A stretch of 64,000 bases of DNA from Desulfobulbaceae bacterium UBA2273. GTDB lineage: Bacteria > Desulfobacterota > Desulfobulbia > Desulfobulbales > Desulfurivibrionaceae. Positions within the stretch are counted from its first letter, which is position 1. Every line of letters starts with the position of its first letter. Shown piece by piece: positions 3,103 through 18,405 of the stretch. The notes under the pieces are model-generated. The model was not told where the DNA came from. It made no database searches and was given only the letters and a program-made list of their open reading frames with translations. The stretch lies in NCBI GenBank assembly GCA_002347095.1, contig DDWZ01000016.1:124001-188000 (forward strand), read 5' to 3'. Made by a program: the position numbers and the translations under genes.

Positions 3103-3447
3103 ATGCGCGATTACGCGAAAAAATATTCCAGCACCTCCGGCAACAGGCAGAAGGTTGCCGGCAGGCGGACGGGCGGATCGGATCGGGAACGGCCGTTCAA
3201 GATCATCGGGGCAATTGCGGTTGTCGCCATGCTGCTGGGGGTAGTCAGCAGCCTCTGGTTTGGCGTTGCCTTGCGGGACGGGCTGGGCAGGCTTGGCAAG
3301 GGCCAGCAGGAAAAAGCCGAACTCGTTGCGGCCAATATGGCGCTTGCCGCGGAAAAGGACGCGCTGCTGCAACAGGAAAAAATCGAAGCTGCGGCAGGAG
3401 AGCTGGGATTGTACCCGCCTTCCGCGAAGCAGATGAGAAGGCCATAG
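3103..3447 (+). CDS. ftsL: Cell division protein FtsL-like
   Basis: Small bitopic membrane protein of the divisome, normally forming the FtsQLB complex that activates FtsWI. The 114 residues comprise a basic cytoplasmic tail (about 1-37), one transmembrane helix (about 39-60, IIGAIAVVAMLLGVVSSLWF), and a periplasmic segment with alanine, glutamate and lysine heptads (about 67-100) compatible with a coiled coil. Sequence is poorly conserved in this family, so the call rests on position between rsmH and ftsI, size and topology. The ATG at 3103 is preferred over 3079 because the latter lies inside rsmH; AAGAGGAAG lies about 10 bases upstream. Confidence 0.8.
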   Translation: MRDYAKKYSSTSGNRQKVAGRRTGGSDRERPFKIIGAIAVVAMLLGVVSSLWFGVALRDGLGRLGKGQQEKAELVAANMALAAEKDALLQQEKIEAAAGELGLYPPSAKQMRRP

Positions 3448-3454
3448 GCCCGGC

Positions 3455-5482
3455 ATGATGAGGCGGGGAATTGAGGGAAAAGACCGGCGCCCTCTCGTGG
3501 TGGGAGTAATTCTCTTGTTGGTGGCGGCGGTGTTTGCCGTGATCGCCATAAAAAGTCATTTTTTTGGGGAAAGCGGGCAACAGGCGCAGGGAGACAAGCA
3601 AAGGGACGAACAGGTCAGCGCCGTGCAAGGTGGCGGCCGGAGAAACATCTATGACCGGAATTTCATGGAGCTGGCAGTGAGTTTTCAGCGAAGTTCCCTC
3701 TACGCCAGGCCATTGGAACTCGAGGCGCCCGAGAAGGTCGCCCGTGAGGTTGCAAAGATTCTCGGACTTGATGAAAAAAATGTGCTCTCCGCTCTGAAAG
3801 GGGAAAGAAGTTTTGCCTGGCTCGGCAGGGATCTGAGCCGCGAGAAAGCGGTGAAAATCGCGGACCTTAACCTGAAAGGGGTGTACCGCATCAATCAGGT
3901 GCAACGATTTTATCCGGGCAACCAGCTTGGCGCCCATGTCATTGGCTTTTTAAAGGACGAGCAGGGGCTGGCCGGGGTTGAGTTTTATTATGACAGTGTT
4001 CTTCGGGGCGGCGGGGTGTATGACCCGAGGCTGGCCGCCGCCGGAGTGAGCAGGAAAATAGCCGAAGGGAGTGACAGCGCAAGCCTCATTCTGACCCTTG
4101 ACAGCCATCTCCAGAATACTCTGGAGCAAAAACTCGCGGGGCTGGTACACAGCACGGAGGCAAAAGCCGGAGTGGCGGTGATCATGGTCCCGTCCACCGG
4201 CGAGATTCTCGGCTTGGCCAACCTGCCGGATTATGATCCCAATCGATTTTGGGAGTTCAGCGCCGACGCGCGGAGGAATCGGGCCATTGAAGATCTCCTT
4301 GATCTTGGCGTGATGGAGCGCCTGTTTCAGGAAGCGGCGGCACTGGATAGCCGGAGTGGTGGGGGCGGGAACGGGGCTGCGGGCGGCGAGGCCATGCCTG
4401 AGCCGGAGGTGATCCAGCGCGGCCCCTGGAATATGGTGGCGGACGGCAGGTATATTTCCCCGGAAGGGGTCGGCCTGGGCCAGACCGTGGTGGGGCGTGG
4501 CGAGTTCAGCGCCTTTGCCGAAAAGATCGGGTTGACAGTCAAGGGAGAGGTGGATTTGCCCGAGGCGATGTTCTCCTTAAAGGAGGATGCGGATGCCGGT
4601 CCGGTTATCAAAAAAGAAGAAGGGGGCCAAGTGACGCATCCTCCCCCGACGATACAGGCCAAGCCGCTGCATGGTGACAAGGATTCTATTCCGACGGCAA
4701 CCCCTCTGGCGTTGCTGTCGGCGTTTTCCCGGTTGATCAACGGAGGGCAAGTGATGACCCCCCATGTTCTCCGGGCGGTCTGGCAGGATGAGCAGGTGTG
4801 GGATGTGCCGGTCCGGCGCGGGATCGGGGAGTTTGCCGTGCGCCCCGATGTGAGCGCGGGCATGCGGAGCGAAATGAAGAAGGCCGCCGGATCGGGCCGG
4901 GGGGTTTTCGTCATCGAATCGCTGCTGCAGAAAGAGCCCTTCCCTGAGGGGCAGGCAAAGACGCCAAGCGATAGCGCGGCGCCGCCGGCAAACGATGGTG
5001 GAGAACAAGCGAAAGCCGGCCCGGCGGTAATGGAGAGTATTCTTCTGGGCATGGCCCCGCTGGACAACCCTGAAATCGCCATGATTGTCGTGCTTGAGGG
5101 AGCGCATATCGATCCGCAGGCCAAGTCGCCGGTTCGGGATCTTGCCGAAGAGATGATGCCGCAGGCGAGAATCGCGCTGCAGAATCAGGTAAAGCCTCCC
5201 ACCGCCAAGGAGTTGGCTGTGCGCGAAGTCGGCTATTACAAAAAAATGGAAACGATTCAAGCGCAATCCGCCCTGCCCGCTGCCTTGGCGCAAGGGCCCC
5301 AGGGCCTGATCATGCCCGATGTGCGGGGCTTGAGCGGGCGCAAGGCGATGCAGGTTTTACAGCCCTACGGGGTGCGGCTGCAGATTGTCGGCTCAGGGCA
5401 GGTGGCAAGTCAGTATCCCTTGGCCGGCTCTGCCCTGCGGGGCGTTGAGCAGTGTGTGCTGCGCCTGAAAACGATGCAATAG
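3455..5482 (+). CDS. ftsI: FtsI-like class B penicillin-binding protein homologue lacking all catalytic motifs, with PASTA tail
   Basis: 675 residues with FtsI architecture: TM anchor about 13-33, N-terminal PBP domain from RRNIYDRN (62-69), a transpeptidase-like region about 230-575, and a PASTA domain about 618-672. Active FtsI crosslinks septal peptidoglycan through SxxK, SxN and KTGT. Here the first motif aligns as D283-L-G-V-M-E-R289 in place of (E/D)PGSTxK, so the nucleophile is Val286 and the lysine is Arg289. The SxN region (ISPEGVGLGQTVVGRG, 334-349) is shortened and has no SxN. The KTGT region is replaced by GRGVFVIES and a Pro/Ala-rich linker. The surrounding fold signatures (ATPLALLSAFSRLINGGQVM, LLGMAPLDNPEIAMIVVLEG) remain. 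The frame is intact and neighbouring frames do not restore SxxK. I infer a pseudoenzyme kept as a divisome scaffold. It is not an obvious pseudogene. Confidence 0.85.
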   Translation: MMRRGIEGKDRRPLVVGVILLLVAAVFAVIAIKSHFFGESGQQAQGDKQRDEQVSAVQGGGRRNIYDRNFMELAVSFQRSSLYARPLELEAPEKVAREVAKILGLDEKNVLSALKGERSFAWLGRDLSREKAVKIADLNLKGVYRINQVQRFYPGNQLGAHVIGFLKDEQGLAGVEFYYDSVLRGGGVYDPRLAAAGVSRKIAEGSDSASLILTLDSHLQNTLEQKLAGLVHSTEAKAGVAVIMVPSTGEILGLANLPDYDPNRFWEFSADARRNRAIEDLLDLGVMERLFQEAAALDSRSGGGGNGAAGGEAMPEPEVIQRGPWNMVADGRYISPEGVGLGQTVVGRGEFSAFAEKIGLTVKGEVDLPEAMFSLKEDADAGPVIKKEEGGQVTHPPPTIQAKPLHGDKDSIPTATPLALLSAFSRLINGGQVMTPHVLRAVWQDEQVWDVPVRRGIGEFAVRPDVSAGMRSEMKKAAGSGRGVFVIESLLQKEPFPEGQAKTPSDSAAPPANDGGEQAKAGPAVMESILLGMAPLDNPEIAMIVVLEGAHIDPQAKSPVRDLAEEMMPQARIALQNQVKPPTAKELAVREVGYYKKMETIQAQSALPAALAQGPQGLIMPDVRGLSGRKAMQVLQPYGVRLQIVGSGQVASQYPLAGSALRGVEQCVLRLKTMQ

Positions 5483-9741: not shown

Positions 9742-11166
9742 ATGAATTGGAACCTCAAGGAAATACTGCAGCCCGGAGCCCATGTTGTCGTGGTGGGTCT
9801 TGGCAAGTCCGGTGTTTCCGCGGTGCGGTTCCTGCTTAATCTGGGTGTGAAAATATCGGTTTCAGAGGGTGGCCGTCAGGAGAACCTTGAAGGAGACTTG
9901 GTTCGGTGGCTGAAGGAGAAAAGAGTTTTTGTTGAAACTGGCGGCCATACCTCTGAGCTTTTAACATCGGCGGATTGTATTCTGGTAAGCCCGGGCGTCC
10001 CGCTCGACATAGCGCCCCTTGCCGCTGCCCGGCAAAAAGGCATCCCGGTGGTGGGCGAGCTCGCCCTGGCCAAGGATTTCCTGAAAGGGACCCTGGTGGC
10101 GGTGACCGGCACCAACGGCAAGAGCACGGTGACTACCCTGATCGGCGATCTGCTGGCCGGTAGCGGCAAGAAGGTCTTTGTGGGCGGCAATCTCGGGACT
10201 CCCCTGGCCGAATATCTTGCCGGGCCCCAGGAATGTGAGGTGGTGGTTCTTGAGGTGAGCAGCTTTCAACTGGACAGCGGTGGAGAGTTCCATCCCCGGG
10301 TGGGAGTGCTGCTCAATATCACCCCGGACCACCTGGATCGGTATGCCTCCTATGAGGCCTATGTCGATTCCAAGATGTCGCTCTTTAAAAACCAGCAGCC
10401 CGGCGACGTGGCCGTGGTCAACGGGGACGATCCTGTCATTGCCGGATGGCTGGGCAAAGAGTCGGAAAAAACGAGCCCCTGGCCGCTACTGGGCGAAATC
10501 CGGCAATACAGCGCCTGCGAAACGACCGGGATGGCGGCCTTCCTCAGCGGAACCAAGGTCCGCATTGTCGCGAAGGGCGAACCGGGCAAGAAAACCGAGG
10601 AATACGAATTGGCGGGAACCCCTCTTGACCAGGCGCCAAACACCGAAAACGCCATGGCGGCAATTCTCGCGGTCCGGGCCCTGGGGTGCAGCCCGGCGGA
10701 TATTCAGCAGAGCCTGGCCGGATTCGCGCCGTTGCCGCACCGGCTGGCCCTGGTGGATGAGATCAATGGAATCTCCTACTACGACGATTCCAAGGCCACC
10801 AATATCGGGGCGGTGTATTCCGCCTTGGGCGGCATGAAGCAGCAGGTGGTGCTCATTGCCGGAGGCCGGGGCAAGGGCGGGGGGTACGAGATGCTGCGCC
10901 CCTTGGTGCGGGAAAAGGTTCGGGCCATGGTTCTGATCGGCGAGGCAAGGGAAGAAATGGCCAGGGCTTTCGCCGAGACCACCCGGATAGCCTTTGCCGC
11001 GGAAATGGACGAAGCGGTAAGGCTGGCAAGTTCAATGGCGGAGAAGGGAGACGCGGTGTTGCTCTCACCTGCCTGCGCGAGTTTTGACATGTTCAGAAGC
11101 TACAGCCACCGGGGCGAGGTGTTTGCCCAGGCGGTCAGCAGATTGGCGGGGCAGGAAGCGCGCTAG
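9742..11166 (+). CDS. murD: UDP-N-acetylmuramoylalanine-D-glutamate ligase MurD
   Basis: Adds D-glutamate to UDP-MurNAc-L-Ala. 474 residues with the N-terminal Rossmann motif VVVGLGKSGVSAV (residues 14-26), P-loop VTGTNGKSTVTTL, ITPDHLDRY and the C-terminal SPACASFDMFRSYSHRGEVF, which is diagnostic for MurD. It starts with ATG after AAAGGATG-like spacing, 22 bases past mraY. In most bacteria ftsW follows here; in this window a 62-residue ORF does. Confidence 0.97.
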   Translation: MNWNLKEILQPGAHVVVVGLGKSGVSAVRFLLNLGVKISVSEGGRQENLEGDLVRWLKEKRVFVETGGHTSELLTSADCILVSPGVPLDIAPLAAARQKGIPVVGELALAKDFLKGTLVAVTGTNGKSTVTTLIGDLLAGSGKKVFVGGNLGTPLAEYLAGPQECEVVVLEVSSFQLDSGGEFHPRVGVLLNITPDHLDRYASYEAYVDSKMSLFKNQQPGDVAVVNGDDPVIAGWLGKESEKTSPWPLLGEIRQYSACETTGMAAFLSGTKVRIVAKGEPGKKTEEYELAGTPLDQAPNTENAMAAILAVRALGCSPADIQQSLAGFAPLPHRLALVDEINGISYYDDSKATNIGAVYSALGGMKQQVVLIAGGRGKGGGYEMLRPLVREKVRAMVLIGEAREEMARAFAETTRIAFAAEMDEAVRLASSMAEKGDAVLLSPACASFDMFRSYSHRGEVFAQAVSRLAGQEAR

Positions 11167-11249
11167 CGGCAACGGTCGGGAAAACGCCTGGAAGCCAAGT
11201 CTCTGAGGGGGGCACGGCTTGGGGGCGACAACAGGGCGAGGACGGGTTT

Positions 11250-11438
11250 ATGCAAACAGTGTGCTGTGTGTGCCAGAAAACCAAGAGCCGGACCGGGTGG
11301 ATACAGGGACAATCAAGCAAGGAAACCAGGGTTTCCCATGGCTACTGCCCGGATTGTTTTCACCAGACCATGGCGCGGGCGCAGGATTGGCTGCTGGCGA
11401 GAAGTGGCGGAAACCGCAGCCTGGCTGTCGGGCAATAA
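11250..11438 (+). CDS. Small zinc-ribbon-like protein (CxxC...SHGYCPDC) in the usual ftsW position
   Basis: 62 residues with no close functional assignment. It has two cysteine pairs, Cys5-x2-Cys8 and Cys33-x2-Cys36, the second in SHGYCPDCFHQTM. This resembles the C-terminal tail often seen on sensory proteins (CxxCxxxR ... SHGICPEC), where four cysteines probably bind a metal. Here the module stands alone. GAGGA lies 8-12 bases before the ATG, and the ORF fits neatly between murD (83 bases upstream) and murG (17 bases downstream), so it is likely translated within the operon. The C-terminal 20 residues look unstructured. It could be a metal-dependent adaptor or redox-sensitive factor, but that is speculation. 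Confidence 0.6.
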   Translation: MQTVCCVCQKTKSRTGWIQGQSSKETRVSHGYCPDCFHQTMARAQDWLLARSGGNRSLAVGQ

Positions 11439-11455
11439 GGAATGGGTGGCTGTCC

Positions 11456-12532
11456 ATGCGGATGATCGTGACCGGAGGCGGAACAGGAGGGCATCTTTTT
11501 CCCGGCATTGCCGTGGCCGAAGAGATGCTGCGCCGGTTTCCCCAAGGGAAGGTCCTCTTTGTCAGCACGGACCGGGCCATAGACAACAAGACCCTGGCTG
11601 ACCGCGCCTTTGAGAAGAAATCAATCGTTTGCCTGCCCTTGAAGGGGAAATCGCTTTTGGGGACAGTCAAGAGCATGGCCCAGCTTCCCATCAGCCTTTG
11701 GCAGGCGTTGCGACTGGTCCGCGCCTTCAAGCCGCAGTTGGTTTTGGGGGTGGGCGGCTACGTGACCGGGCCGGTGGTGCTGGCGGCACGACTTTTGGGG
11801 GTGAAAACCTGCATCCATGAGCAGAATTCAATTCCGGGAATGGCCAACAGGATGCTTGGAAAAATCGTCGACCAGGTATATATTTCCATCCCCGGCTCCG
11901 AGGATTTTTTCCCCCGGGGCAAGGCGGTGCTGACCGGCAATCCGGTGCGGGCGGAACTGCTCCAGGAGGCCGGCCGGCGGAAGGATCAGGTTGCAAGCAA
12001 GACGGTGCTGGTTTTGGGTGGCAGTCAGGGCGCGCACCGGGTCAATTCCCTGATGGTGGAGGCCTTTGCCCAGAACCAGTCCGGGGAGCCGGTTCAGATC
12101 CACCACCAGACGGGAAACAGTGATGAAGAGTGGGTGCGCAAGGCTTACGCTGCGGCAGGGGTCACGGCCCAAGTCTCTTCCTTTATCAGCGATATGGCGG
12201 CGGCCTATCGGGATGCGGACCTGGTTGTCTCCCGGGCCGGGGCGACCACCCTGGCGGAGCTGGCGGTGCTGGGCAGGCCGGCGATTTTGATCCCCTTTCC
12301 GTATGCGGCCGATGATCACCAGACGACCAATGCGGCGTTTCTGGTGGCTGGCGGGGCCGCCCTGATGTTTCAGGAGCGGGACCTCGATGGCCCGAAGCTG
12401 CGGGAGGCGATATGGGGGCTGTTGAACGATGTGCCCCGGCTGCAGTCCATGGCAACGCGGATGAAGGAATTTGCCCGGCCGGAGGCGACAGCCGCCATTG
12501 TGGAAAAAAGCATAGCGTTGTTGGCCGCTTGA
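11456..12532 (+). CDS. murG: UDP-GlcNAc:lipid I N-acetylglucosaminyltransferase MurG
   Basis: Peripheral inner-membrane GT28 glycosyltransferase that converts lipid I to lipid II. From ATG 11456 the protein has 358 residues, the family size, beginning MRMIVTGGGTGGHLFPG with the glycine-rich loop. Further signatures are GVGGYVTGPVVLAA, HEQNSIPGMANR, LVLGGSQGAHRVN and SRAGATTLAELAVLGRPAILIPFPYA. The frame stays open to 11219, but the upstream extension is in another frame from the zinc-ribbon ORF and is not conserved. GGTGG lies about 6 bases before 11456. murC follows after 26 bases. Confidence 0.96.
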   Translation: MRMIVTGGGTGGHLFPGIAVAEEMLRRFPQGKVLFVSTDRAIDNKTLADRAFEKKSIVCLPLKGKSLLGTVKSMAQLPISLWQALRLVRAFKPQLVLGVGGYVTGPVVLAARLLGVKTCIHEQNSIPGMANRMLGKIVDQVYISIPGSEDFFPRGKAVLTGNPVRAELLQEAGRRKDQVASKTVLVLGGSQGAHRVNSLMVEAFAQNQSGEPVQIHHQTGNSDEEWVRKAYAAAGVTAQVSSFISDMAAAYRDADLVVSRAGATTLAELAVLGRPAILIPFPYAADDHQTTNAAFLVAGGAALMFQERDLDGPKLREAIWGLLNDVPRLQSMATRMKEFARPEATAAIVEKSIALLAA

Positions 12533-14968: not shown

Positions 14969-15787
14969 TTGCGAAAGGAAAAGTCCATACAGCAGCGTTA
15001 CGGGAGCGGCAGAAAAAGCCGGAGCCTGGATCTCAGGAAAAAACTGGCCATTCTCGGGGTTGGTTTTCTGCTGCTGGTGGCAGGCTTTGGCGCGGTCGGC
15101 TTTATTGTTTATAAAGCCTTGGGGCGGGCGGATTTTTTCCAGATAACCGCCACCAACATTGAGGGGTGCCGGAGGACCACCAAGAATCTCATCCTTGAGA
15201 TGAGTGGGGTGGATGTGCACAGCAATCTGCTGGCCTTGGACATCAAGCGGGTGAAGGCTGGGATTGAGGCCCATGAATGGGTCGAGTCGGTGGAGATTGC
15301 AAGGGACTGGCCCAACCGTTTGACCATTGTTGTCAAAGAGCGGTTGCCGGTGGCCATTGCCAGCCTCGACAACGGGTTGTTCTATCTTGACCAGAACGGC
15401 GTAGCCTTTGCCCAGGTGCTGCCGCCCGAGGATATGGACTATCCCATCATCACCGGGATGAAAAGGGAGGAATGGCCGAGGAACCTCAAGGATTCGCAAC
15501 TGGGCGCGGCCCTGCAGTTCATCAAATACGCGGGGCAGGGGAGTTCCATTCTGCCGAAGCAGAATATCTCGGAACTCCACGTGGACGGGGACGAAAATAT
15601 CATCCTCTATCTGGTGGACCGGCCTTTTCCCATCGATCTGGGAACAGGCAATGTGGGGACCAAATATTACTGGCTGACCAAGGTGCTGTACAAGTTGTAC
15701 AAGAGCAAGGAGTTTGAAAAAGCCGCCTATGTCAGGATGGACTATGGGCGCAACCAGGTGCTGGTGGGTTTTGACGAGGCGGGATGA
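14969..15787 (+). CDS. ftsQ: Cell division protein FtsQ
   Basis: Bitopic divisome protein that recruits FtsL/FtsB and late proteins. 272 residues: basic cytoplasmic tail (about 1-25), one TM helix (about 26-50), POTRA domain from FQITATNIEGCRRTTKNLI through WPNRLTIVVKERLPVAIA (about 57-130), then the FtsQ/DivIB beta domain (FYLDQNGVAFAQ onward). The start is TTG with a weak SD, 30 bases after murB. The stop codon lies inside an 11-bp hairpin that begins the ftsA leader. Confidence 0.88.
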   Translation: MRKEKSIQQRYGSGRKSRSLDLRKKLAILGVGFLLLVAGFGAVGFIVYKALGRADFFQITATNIEGCRRTTKNLILEMSGVDVHSNLLALDIKRVKAGIEAHEWVESVEIARDWPNRLTIVVKERLPVAIASLDNGLFYLDQNGVAFAQVLPPEDMDYPIITGMKREEWPRNLKDSQLGAALQFIKYAGQGSSILPKQNISELHVDGDENIILYLVDRPFPIDLGTGNVGTKYYWLTKVLYKLYKSKEFEKAAYVRMDYGRNQVLVGFDEAG

Positions 15788-15936: not shown

Positions 15937-17169
15937 ATGGCACATGAAGAACGTGGCGATCTAATTGTCGGGCTGGATATCGGCACCACCAAGATCTGCG
16001 TGGTGGTCGGCGAGGTCCATGACACCCGGATTGATATCATCGGCATAGGCAGGCATCCCTCGGTGGGACTGCGCCGCGGGGTGGTGGTCAATATCGAGAG
16101 CACCGTCCACTCGATCCGGCAGGCGGTGGAAGAGGCGGAACGCATGGCCGGCTGCGAGATCGGTTCGGTGTATGTGGGCATTGCCGGCAGCCACATCAAG
16201 AGCTTCAACAGCCACGGCTTGATCGCCATCAAGCATAACGAGATCAGACAGGACGACATCGACCGGGTGGTGGATGCGGCCCGGGCCGTGCCCATTCCGC
16301 CGGATCAGGAGGTAATCCATGTGCTGCCGCAGGAGTTCATGGTGGACGGCCAGGCCGATATCCAGGACCCCATCGGCATGACCGGCGTCCGCCTCGAAGC
16401 GGATGTGCATATTGTGACCGGTTCGGCAACCGCGGTGCATAACATTGTCAAATGCTGCAACCGCGCCGGCTTACAGGTGACGGATGTGGTGCTCGAGCCC
16501 TTGGCTTCGGCGGGTGCGGTTTTGACCCGGGAAGAAATGGAGCTGGGGGTTGGACTGCTGGACATCGGCGGCGGCACCGCCGATCTGGCGATCTTTGCCG
16601 ACGGGACCATCAAGCATACTTTTGTTTTGGGATTGGGCGGCCAGAATCTGACCAACGATCTGTCCATCGGCCTGCGCACTCCGCAGAAGGAGGCGGAAAG
16701 GCTCAAGGAGGAGTACGGTTGCGCCCTGGCCTCGCTCATCGACAAGGATCAGGTCATCGAGGTTCCCAGCGTGGGGGGGAGAAAGAATCGAAAGCTTTCC
16801 CGCAGGGTCATGGGAGAGATCCTTGAACCCCGGGTTGAGGAGATGCTCACCCTGATCAACCAGGAATTGCTCGATTCCAAGCACAAGGAAATGATCAACG
16901 CCGGCATGGTACTGACCGGGGGCTCGTGCCTGCTGGACAACATGGAAGAGCTGGCGGAGCAGATTTTTGACCTGCCGGTCCGCATCGGCCGTCCGGAAAA
17001 TATCGGCGGGGTAGTGGATGTGGTGGGCACGCCGCAGTGGGCAACCGGCGTTGGTCTGGTTGTCTATGGCATGAAGAATGGGCCGGGGGAAAGATTCAAA
17101 CGGCCCAAGGGGGGAATGGTAGGGAGATTTACCGGTCGGATGAAGGACTGGTTTAAGGGGATAGTGTAA
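15937..17169 (+). CDS. ftsA: Cell division protein FtsA
   Basis: Actin-family ATPase that tethers FtsZ filaments to the inner membrane. 410 residues with VGLDIGTTKICVVVGEV (phosphate 1), the 1C subdomain around SVYVGIAGSHIKSFNSHG, LLDIGGGTADLAIF (phosphate 2), VLTGGSCLLDNMEELAE, and a C-terminal amphipathic helix (VGRFTGRMKDWFKGIV) that serves as membrane target sequence. AAAGGTG precedes the ATG. ftsZ follows after 66 bases. Confidence 0.97.
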   Translation: MAHEERGDLIVGLDIGTTKICVVVGEVHDTRIDIIGIGRHPSVGLRRGVVVNIESTVHSIRQAVEEAERMAGCEIGSVYVGIAGSHIKSFNSHGLIAIKHNEIRQDDIDRVVDAARAVPIPPDQEVIHVLPQEFMVDGQADIQDPIGMTGVRLEADVHIVTGSATAVHNIVKCCNRAGLQVTDVVLEPLASAGAVLTREEMELGVGLLDIGGGTADLAIFADGTIKHTFVLGLGGQNLTNDLSIGLRTPQKEAERLKEEYGCALASLIDKDQVIEVPSVGGRKNRKLSRRVMGEILEPRVEEMLTLINQELLDSKHKEMINAGMVLTGGSCLLDNMEELAEQIFDLPVRIGRPENIGGVVDVVGTPQWATGVGLVVYGMKNGPGERFKRPKGGMVGRFTGRMKDWFKGIV

Positions 17170-17235
17170 ACACGCTCATCAGGCGCCAGGCGATGTTGGG
17201 AGCAGGTCAATGACCTTGAACAGGGAGAGCAGGAT

Positions 17236-18405
17236 ATGACTTTTAAATTCGCGGAAACAGAATCACGGGCAAAGATCAGGGTTTTTGGCGTTGGTGGCGG
17301 CGGGGGCAATGCGGTCAACACCATGGTGGATAGCAATATCCTCGGGGTGGAATTCATTGCCGGCAACACCGATATCCAGGATTTGGAAAAATCCAAGGCC
17401 GATGTCCGGCTGCAGCTTGGCAAAAATGTCGCCAAGGGGCTTGGGGCCGGAGCCAACCCTGAAAGGGGCCGGGAAGCGGCGGAGGAGTCCATCGACGAAA
17501 TACGAAAGCAGTTGAAGGACTGCGACATGGTTTTTGTCACCTGCGGGTTGGGCGGCGGCACCGGCACCGGAGCCGCGCCGGTGGTGGCCAGGATTGCCAA
17601 GGAGCTGGGCGCGCTGACCGTGGGTGTCGTGACCAAGCCCTTTGCCTTCGAAGGCAGGGCCCGGATGAAAAACGCCGAGCTCGGCTGGAAGAACCTGAAA
17701 GAGCATGTGGACACCATCATCACCATTCCCAATGACCGGCTCATCTCCCTGAGCCAGAAGGGAACCCGTTTCATCGACGGGATGAAGATGGCCGACGATG
17801 TCCTGGTGCAGGCGGTCAAAGGCATCACCGACCTGATCAATCTGCCCGGCTACATCAACCCCGACTTTGCCGACGTGCGGGCAATTATGAACGAGATGGG
17901 CCAGGCCCTCATGGGCTCCGGTTACGGGGTGGGCGAAAACCGGGCCGTGGAAGCGGTGAACATGGCGATCAACAGCCCGCTCTTGCAAGATATCAGCATC
18001 GACGGCGCCAGGGGGGTTTTGGTCAATATCTCCGCCAGCCGGGAGACCCTGACCATGCCCGAGGTGACCGAGGCCACCACCAAGATTTACCAGGAAGTGC
18101 ACGAGGATGCCAATATCATCCTGGGTGTGATCTTTGACGAGAATCTGGGCGATGAGCTGCAGGTAACGGTTATTGCCACGGGTATCCGCGATACCGTGGA
18201 GGAGATCGAGGAGCTGCCGGACAAGGTGCAGCTCATGCCCAAAAAGCGGGAGCCCGCCGCGCAGCCGCTGCCGTTTAGAAAAGGGGAGCAAGGCATGGCC
18301 GCAGGCCGCGCCGTGGCCAACGGCATACAGAGATCCTACGCCAACAATATCTTAAACGAGCAGGACTACGACCGGCCGACCTTTTTGCGCAGGAATGAAA
18401 GTTAG
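17236..18405 (+). CDS. ftsZ: Cell division GTPase FtsZ
   Basis: Tubulin-like GTPase forming the Z ring. 389 residues with VFGVGGGGGNAVNTMV near the N-terminus, the tubulin signature GLGGGTGTGAAPV, NDRLI, and the T7 synergy loop NPDFADVRAIMNEMGQA with its catalytic acidic residues. A short linker leads to a C-terminal conserved peptide, DYDRPTFLRR, that binds FtsA and other partners. All functional elements are intact, in contrast to FtsI upstream. It is the last gene of the dcw cluster, followed by a terminator-like hairpin at 18561-18590. Confidence 0.98.
   Translation: MTFKFAETESRAKIRVFGVGGGGGNAVNTMVDSNILGVEFIAGNTDIQDLEKSKADVRLQLGKNVAKGLGAGANPERGREAAEESIDEIRKQLKDCDMVFVTCGLGGGTGTGAAPVVARIAKELGALTVGVVTKPFAFEGRARMKNAELGWKNLKEHVDTIITIPNDRLISLSQKGTRFIDGMKMADDVLVQAVKGITDLINLPGYINPDFADVRAIMNEMGQALMGSGYGVGENRAVEAVNMAINSPLLQDISIDGARGVLVNISASRETLTMPEVTEATTKIYQEVHEDANIILGVIFDENLGDELQVTVIATGIRDTVEEIEELPDKVQLMPKKREPAAQPLPFRKGEQGMAAGRAVANGIQRSYANNILNEQDYDRPTFLRRNES

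Follow-up and report, generated by a model that had tools for sequence, protein, structure and literature searches.

The division and cell wall (dcw) cluster of Desulfobulbaceae bacterium UBA2273 encodes an FtsI homologue from which all three penicillin-binding motifs, SxxK, SxN and KTGT, are missing. The cluster lies in a 64,000-nucleotide stretch of contig DDWZ01000016.1 (positions 124,001 to 188,000), hereafter the window. We refer to this class B penicillin-binding protein (PBP) as pseudo-FtsI. Judged from its sequence, it is almost certainly dead as a DD-transpeptidase. An earlier sequence-only reading of the window had noticed the motif loss. Beyond it, we found that ftsW is also gone, that the only SEDS (shape, elongation, division and sporulation) protein of the genome is RodA, and that the trait extends across the sampled order Desulfobulbales and occupies three places in a dcw tree. 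Pseudo-FtsI very probably has a non-catalytic role in division. We also consider it probable, with somewhat less confidence, that the whole chain holds: the protein is a pseudo-transpeptidase that persists in the divisome in a non-catalytic role, and another synthase, either a class A PBP or RodA-PBP2, builds the septum.

Motifs, domains and predicted fold of pseudo-FtsI

The pseudo-FtsI gene lies in the native dcw locus, between ftsL and murE, and its 675-codon reading frame is intact, as had been claimed. The protein has one N-terminal transmembrane helix followed by the PBP_dimer (pedestal) domain (PF03717, residues 62-185, 38.5 bits). The Pfam Transpeptidase profile (PF00905) matches two stretches, 49.6 bits in total. 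The best covers residues 414-556 (profile 161-286) and the second lies near residues 239-280 (profile 1-38); the intervening part of the profile is unmatched. A PASTA tail follows (PF03793, residues 619-661, 29.4 bits against a cut-off of 23.2). The predicted structure retains the penicillin-binding transpeptidase fold of class B PBPs; the alignment used as AlphaFold2 (AF2) input (A1) mixed dead and active homologues.

DLGVMER stands where (E/D)PGSTxK is expected. Residue 286 is valine (GTG, 4310-4312) and residue 289 is arginine (CGC, 4319-4321), both as originally reported. A scan of the whole protein found neither [SY]xN nor K[ST]G; S..K matches four times (residues 112, 128, 472 and 627), always away from the SxxK site. 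The KTGT site is held by a linker rich in serine, proline and alanine, where the predicted local distance difference test score (pLDDT) falls below 50 at residues 497-508 and 512-518.

Absence of ftsW from the cluster and the genome

The murD and murG genes border the place where ftsW would be expected, and ftsQ, ftsA and ftsZ are kept (Table 1). Candidate remnants of ftsW at window positions 11101-11500 were rejected as chance-level matches, the best of which (E 0.19) hit RodA. Neither a second intact FtsI nor any FtsW was found elsewhere in the genome, whose assembly is 97.81% complete and consists of 33 contigs. The sole SEDS protein scores 423.7 bits with the NCBIfam RodA model (cut-off 336.7) and 297.2 with the FtsW model (cut-off 337.5), and its gene adjoins that of MrdA (716 bits, cut-off 455). 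PF00905 finds MrdA, two class A type proteins and pseudo-FtsI, and PF03717 finds MrdA and pseudo-FtsI only; the search for further FtsI-type class B PBPs thus returned none, MrdA being the only other class B protein.

One of the class A type proteins is a PBP1A-family class A PBP and the other is a divergent 946-aa GT51-type protein. The latter, with GT51 and transpeptidase domains, is encoded at G000:C20 (L157 6284-9121, minus strand) and scores far under the PBP1A family cut-off. Of the 52 genomes searched, 11, its own among them, encode GT51 proteins that score similarly and are 908-1076 aa long.

Dead FtsI across Desulfobulbales

Homologues of pseudo-FtsI were found in 55 of 58 genomes, its own included; the three genomes that lack a match are 60, 77 and 86% complete. 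No internal stop occurs among the matches listed in the 58 genomes. The same genomes have one SEDS match in 55 cases, two abutting halves in one and none in two (G003 and G011, which belong to the window's genus and are 75 and 88% complete). In all 30 SEDS loci read (our own and 29 others) the SEDS gene has mrdA as a neighbour, and in none is it next to murD or murG. The abutting halves are those of G036, a single-contig Desulfobulbales genome whose sole SEDS gene is in two pieces (G036:C1:137697-138757, in L167). This split RodA may reflect a sequencing error or early RodA decay.

In a 60-row alignment, all 13 active proteins have PGSxxK and none of the 47 dead ones does. The dead rows comprise 38 from the order, which cover 13 of its 15 sampled families with the window included, one Desulfobacterales record (L085) and eight from six other families. 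These counts exclude the partial open reading frames (ORFs) L121, L122, L123 and L125 (families f2, f5 and f10), six stubs from f35 and f65, and f39. Families f2 and f10 of the order are represented only by partial ORFs (L121, L125, L123), and their visible parts lack the motifs. A further alignment of these homologues had three rows for most of the near-identical members of the window's genus, and three sequences outside it were inspected separately: L082 is dead, and L084 and L086 are active. Dead FtsI, as read from these motif columns, is not peculiar to one genome and is common to the sampled relatives in the order. A sequencing error or a pseudogene is ruled out, because all aligned homologues of the order lack the motifs and purifying selection acts on the frame.

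Selection on the retained and the lost parts

Within the window's genus, the ratio of nonsynonymous to synonymous substitution rates (dN/dS) was taken as the median over pairs. The FtsI set had 16 of 18 loci (two partial ones were excluded) and 120 pairs, and pairs with dS outside 0.05-2.5 were dropped. The median is 0.163 for whole pseudo-FtsI, 0.058 for the N-terminal domain (residues 61-232) and 0.083 for the PASTA tail. The last two are similar to MraY (0.064) and MurC (0.070); MurE gave 0.123 and FtsL 0.217. The transpeptidase-like part gave 0.217, the first 60 residues 0.263 and the linker (residues 488-530) 0.334.

Across families, mean identities (gaps ignored) were compared between 12 active rows, with L083 left out, and 39 dead rows. 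The N-terminal domain is equally conserved in both (0.402 active, 0.401 dead), whereas the transpeptidase domain falls from 0.457 to 0.239 and the transmembrane helix from 0.310 to 0.180. The transpeptidase domain is thus the best-conserved part of active FtsI and, outside the transmembrane helix, the least conserved part of dead FtsI. The PASTA tail shows the reverse: its identity is 0.451 in dead proteins (present in 39 of 39 rows) and 0.333 in active ones (9 of 12), or 0.205 in the latter when gaps count as mismatches. In dead FtsI the catalytic domain and the transmembrane helix are therefore less conserved, the PASTA tail is more so, and the N-terminal domain is level.

These data divide the claims of the sequence-only reading. 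The motif loss, the intact frame in the native locus, the preserved N-terminal domain and PASTA tail, and selection as a non-enzyme are all borne out. Its view of the losses as specific to the three motifs is not borne out; the whole transpeptidase-like domain is relaxed, beyond the motifs alone.

Coupled loss of FtsI activity and FtsW in the phylum

Most of 158 genomes from the phylum have two SEDS proteins, and at least one was found in 155; those without a match, all outside the window's genus, are G156, G095 and G137. Nine families (f28, f35, f39, f40, f65, f66, f72, f75 and f76) have a single SEDS protein per genome drawn. In the dcw loci read from these families, no recognisable FtsW is present and a dead or eroded frame stands at the ftsI position. 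Its length is 643 aa in f28, 569 in f76, 560 in f72, 538 in f66 and 457 in f75, and shorter in f40 (440 and 412), f39 (340), f65 (299-335) and f35 (248-267). Thermodesulfatator species have a 449-451-aa FtsI form related to that of f75.

Both murD and murG are present in 65 of 80 dcw loci. Ten of the 65 hold a recognisable SEDS gene, and FtsI is live in all ten. The other 55 have no recognisable SEDS gene and no live FtsI (46 were scored dead, and nine without an FtsI BLAST match were inspected). As many of the loci are closely related and hence not independent, the count overstates the independence of the association.

We built a tree from nine concatenated dcw proteins of 55 loci (3586 columns, LG+G4 without mixture, no outgroup); loci with fewer than six of the nine genes were excluded, which kept 55 of 63. 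The tree has long branches and uneven composition. Dead rows fall in three places: Desulfobulbales together with f39, f40, f66, f72, f75 and f76; f28; and f35 with f65. A single clade of all dead rows is rejected by the approximately unbiased (AU) test (p-AU 5.4e-5), and still rejected with the f28 rows freed (p 0.001). FtsI activity and FtsW were thus apparently lost together three times, in the sense of three state changes on an unrooted tree that gives no dating.

The reciprocal state occurs in G071 and G203 (f29), G075 (f33) and G193 (f79), which have one SEDS protein and one FtsI-type class B PBP. No strong MreB match was found in these four genomes. FtsI of f29, f33 and f79 is intact where it was read (L136, L147 and L148), and a SEDS gene lies in the cluster of L136 and L147. 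G218 has three SEDS matches (C371, C106), two of which share a contig, possibly a tandem RodA or an assembly duplication. Thirteen loci (L096, L101, L102, L106, L110, L111, L115, L116, L118, L119, L131, L142 and L154) show an apparent MurE-MurF fusion: one frame (982-1102 aa) stands where murE and murF would lie, without a separate second gene.

A probable pseudo-FtsW in Syntrophorhabdus-like families

In the Syntrophorhabdus-like families f35 and f65, a multi-helix ORF of ~263 aa lies between murD and murG, where ftsW would be expected, beside a stub FtsI. Its predicted fold is similar to that of RodA/FtsW. A profile link to FtsW failed (hhalign probability 0.4% and 0.7%), and the ORF has no Pfam or PDB-sequence matches; L128 was left out of its alignment. 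Based on fold and position, this ORF is probably a pseudo-FtsW.

Table 1. Coordinates of pseudo-FtsI and its parts, of neighbouring dcw genes in the window, and of the murD-murG ORFs of f35/f65 (positions within the named locus).
Feature	Coordinates	Strand	Remarks
Pseudo-FtsI gene, class B PBP fold, all three catalytic motifs absent	3455..5482	+	675 aa, intact ORF, stop TAG
Predicted transmembrane helix, residues 12-36	3488..3562	+	AF2 helix; weak conservation among dead proteins
N-terminal (pedestal/PBP_dimer) domain, residues 61-232	3635..4150	+	Strongest purifying selection; Pfam PF03717
DLGVMER, residues 283-289, at the expected (E/D)PGSTxK site	4301..4321	+	V286, R289
Transpeptidase-like domain, second part, residues 414-556, without KTGT	4694..5122	+	PF00905 match, motif columns
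Ser/Pro/Ala-rich low-confidence linker at KTGT strand site, ~residues 493-523	4931..5023	+	pLDDT, dN/dS
PASTA tail, residues 613-675, strongly conserved	5291..5479	+	PF03793
ftsL by position	3103..3447	+	Weak similarity only: NCBIfam 28.6 bits, cut-off 55
murD, upstream border of ftsW gap	9742..11166	+	
murD-murG junction without ftsW	11167..11455	+	289 bases, no convincing remnant
murG, downstream border of ftsW gap	11456..12532	+	
ftsQ, kept divisome component	14969..15787	+	POTRA_1 and FtsQ_DivIB_C
ftsA, kept	15937..17169	+	
ftsZ, kept	17236..18405	+	Pfam match on 17224-18402
f35/f65 murD-murG ORF	L127 8695-9501	-	
f35/f65 murD-murG ORF	L129 8653-9453	-	
f35/f65 murD-murG ORF	L130 10287-11090	+	
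f35/f65 murD-murG ORF	L137 9088-9897	-	
f35/f65 murD-murG ORF	L138 9110-9910	-	

Discussion

Pseudo-FtsI differs from septal class B PBPs such as FtsI, PBP3 and PBP2X in lacking SxxK, SxN and KTGT and in having no FtsW partner. Its transpeptidase domain, the best-conserved part of active FtsI, is relaxed. The septal wall would then have to come from an enzyme other than FtsI, which would be kept for another job. We propose that the loss of catalysis by FtsI went together with the loss of its polymerase partner, FtsW, and that the protein was retained as a non-catalytic adaptor. Its N-terminal domain most likely continues to bind FtsL/FtsQ at the Z-ring, and the PASTA tail most likely touches the nascent wall. 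Pseudo-FtsI could so place or switch on a different synthase that makes the septum, the likeliest being a PBP1A-type class A PBP and the alternative RodA-PBP2. In the solved FtsWIQBL complex, as described in the accessible part of its report, the FtsI helix lies on transmembrane helices 8/9 of FtsW and the pedestal on FtsL (PMC7614612). Loss of FtsW with retained docking on FtsL predicts a kept pedestal and a relaxed helix, as found here.

We give the class A PBP about an even chance of being the septal synthase. A GT51 protein is present in 52 of 52 genomes searched, as a single copy in several FtsW-less families, and each of the 18 genomes for which PF00905 was searched too has both class A PBP domains on one frame. 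A genome that seemed to grow by class A PBPs only, G156 (99% complete), was dropped as proof: RodA, MrdA and MreB are missing from it, and so is the neighbouring hemH, while a SEDS match exists in 21 of the 23 genomes from the same genus (the other miss is G222, 72% complete). Its SEDS-less state is best read as an assembly gap.

Several points weigh against this account. Class A PBPs are present in FtsW-containing genomes too, so their presence does not discriminate. MreB was found in 17 of 18 FtsW-less genomes searched and an MrdA-type PBP in 16 of 17, the sole miss in both sets being G156. With RodA, PBP2 and MreB kept nearly throughout, double duty of RodA-PBP2 fits at least as well. Retained parts also vary. 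The stub FtsI of f35 and f65 has lost the pedestal and kept transpeptidase-like helices and PASTA, and the PASTA tail is missing in f39, f40 and f66; no single retained part explains all lineages. Finally, FtsQ, FtsL and FtsB are dispensable in normal division of Clostridioides difficile, according to the available text of PMC10693644, so that precedent leaves the retention of FtsQ and FtsL here unexplained.

It is possible, although somewhat doubtful, that RodA-PBP2 performs both elongation and division, with pseudo-FtsI as the adaptor bringing the shared SEDS complex to the Z-ring. Besides the near-universal MreB and MrdA-type PBP, whose one miss is likely an assembly gap, this would account for the position of SEDS beside mrdA in 30 of 30 loci and for at least one SEDS protein in 155 of 158 genomes. 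It also fits the contrast with G071, G203, G075 and G193, where a single SEDS goes with an FtsI-type PBP and no strong MreB match. However, the same retention is expected if RodA merely serves rod shape. In the dead protein, no part is less conserved than the helix by which FtsI would grip a SEDS protein, and the related precedent, in the text available, employs a class A PBP (PMC10693644, PMC12539705).

That pseudo-FtsI is a functionless relic decaying in the dcw operon is very unlikely. Open frames that shorten progressively in other families, from 643 down to 248 aa, and the relaxed transpeptidase-like domain would suit such decay. They stand against the lack of internal stops among the matches listed in 58 genomes, constraint on the N-terminal domain and PASTA tail at the level of MraY and MurC, and a tail present in every dead row and better conserved there than in the nine active rows that have it. 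Even less probable is a remaining enzyme or beta-lactam binder with another nucleophile or a non-canonical reaction; the predicted fold is kept, but all three motifs are missing at their expected places and no common replacement residue occurs at the motif columns across the order. Least credible is a spare paralogue beside an intact FtsI, given what PF00905 and PF03717 find in this nearly complete assembly and a single SEDS in 55 of 58 genomes.

According to the abstract of PMC10693644, FtsW and FtsI are regarded as universally essential to the synthesis of the septal wall. By the accessible accounts, C. difficile has no functional FtsW/FtsI orthologues and divides by the class A PBP1; with a transpeptidase-dead PBP1, PBP3 in which serine 299 is replaced still promotes septum formation (PMC12539705, PMC10693644). 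As far as these texts go, the two systems share the lack of a canonical FtsW-FtsI pair for vegetative division, the presence of FtsQ and FtsL genes and a class A PBP, and a class B PBP able to act without catalysis, which was demonstrated there and is suggested here by retention and constraint. They differ in that the dcw enzymes of C. difficile are SpoVE/SpoVD, used in sporulation, and that its PBP3 was inactivated by mutation, whereas here the dcw protein naturally lacks an active site and ftsW is gone. Closer relatives are four Desulfobulbaceae genomes (cable bacteria and Desulfobulbus), in which ftsW, ftsN and zipA are reported absent (PMC7873302). They share with ours the class Desulfobulbia and the lack of ftsW, and their FtsI is known here from the paper's text alone. 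That text, in the part available, ascribes septal synthesis to FtsI activity and mentions neither loss of its active site nor a wider distribution. In open-licence PMC it is the only paper we found to treat ftsW in Desulfobulbales, judged from partial texts; the accessible part of PMC8406291 has nothing on the order. No earlier report of dead FtsI or of its wider pattern was found there. Dispensable class B PBP catalysis and FtsW-less division have precedents; what is new is a naturally occurring pseudo-FtsI that sits in its native locus throughout an order, goes with the loss of FtsW and is seen in three places of the tree.

More broadly, we tentatively suggest, at slightly less than even confidence, that a large part of Thermodesulfobacteriota may have turned the core synthase of the divisome into a scaffold. 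Dead FtsI, and in the Syntrophorhabdus-like families apparently FtsW too, would sit at ancestral dcw positions; this would have happened apparently three times, a non-FtsW synthase taking over the septum each time. Every sampled member of the order, as well as several further families in the phylum, has no recognisable FtsW and a dead FtsI. Together they provide natural repeated experiments on the non-catalytic job of FtsI and on what keeps FtsQ, FtsL and the PASTA tail in place. They also put to a natural test the ability of a class A PBP, or of RodA-PBP2, to make the septum in these bacteria. By the same reasoning, FtsI-specific drugs should leave division unblocked in these organisms.
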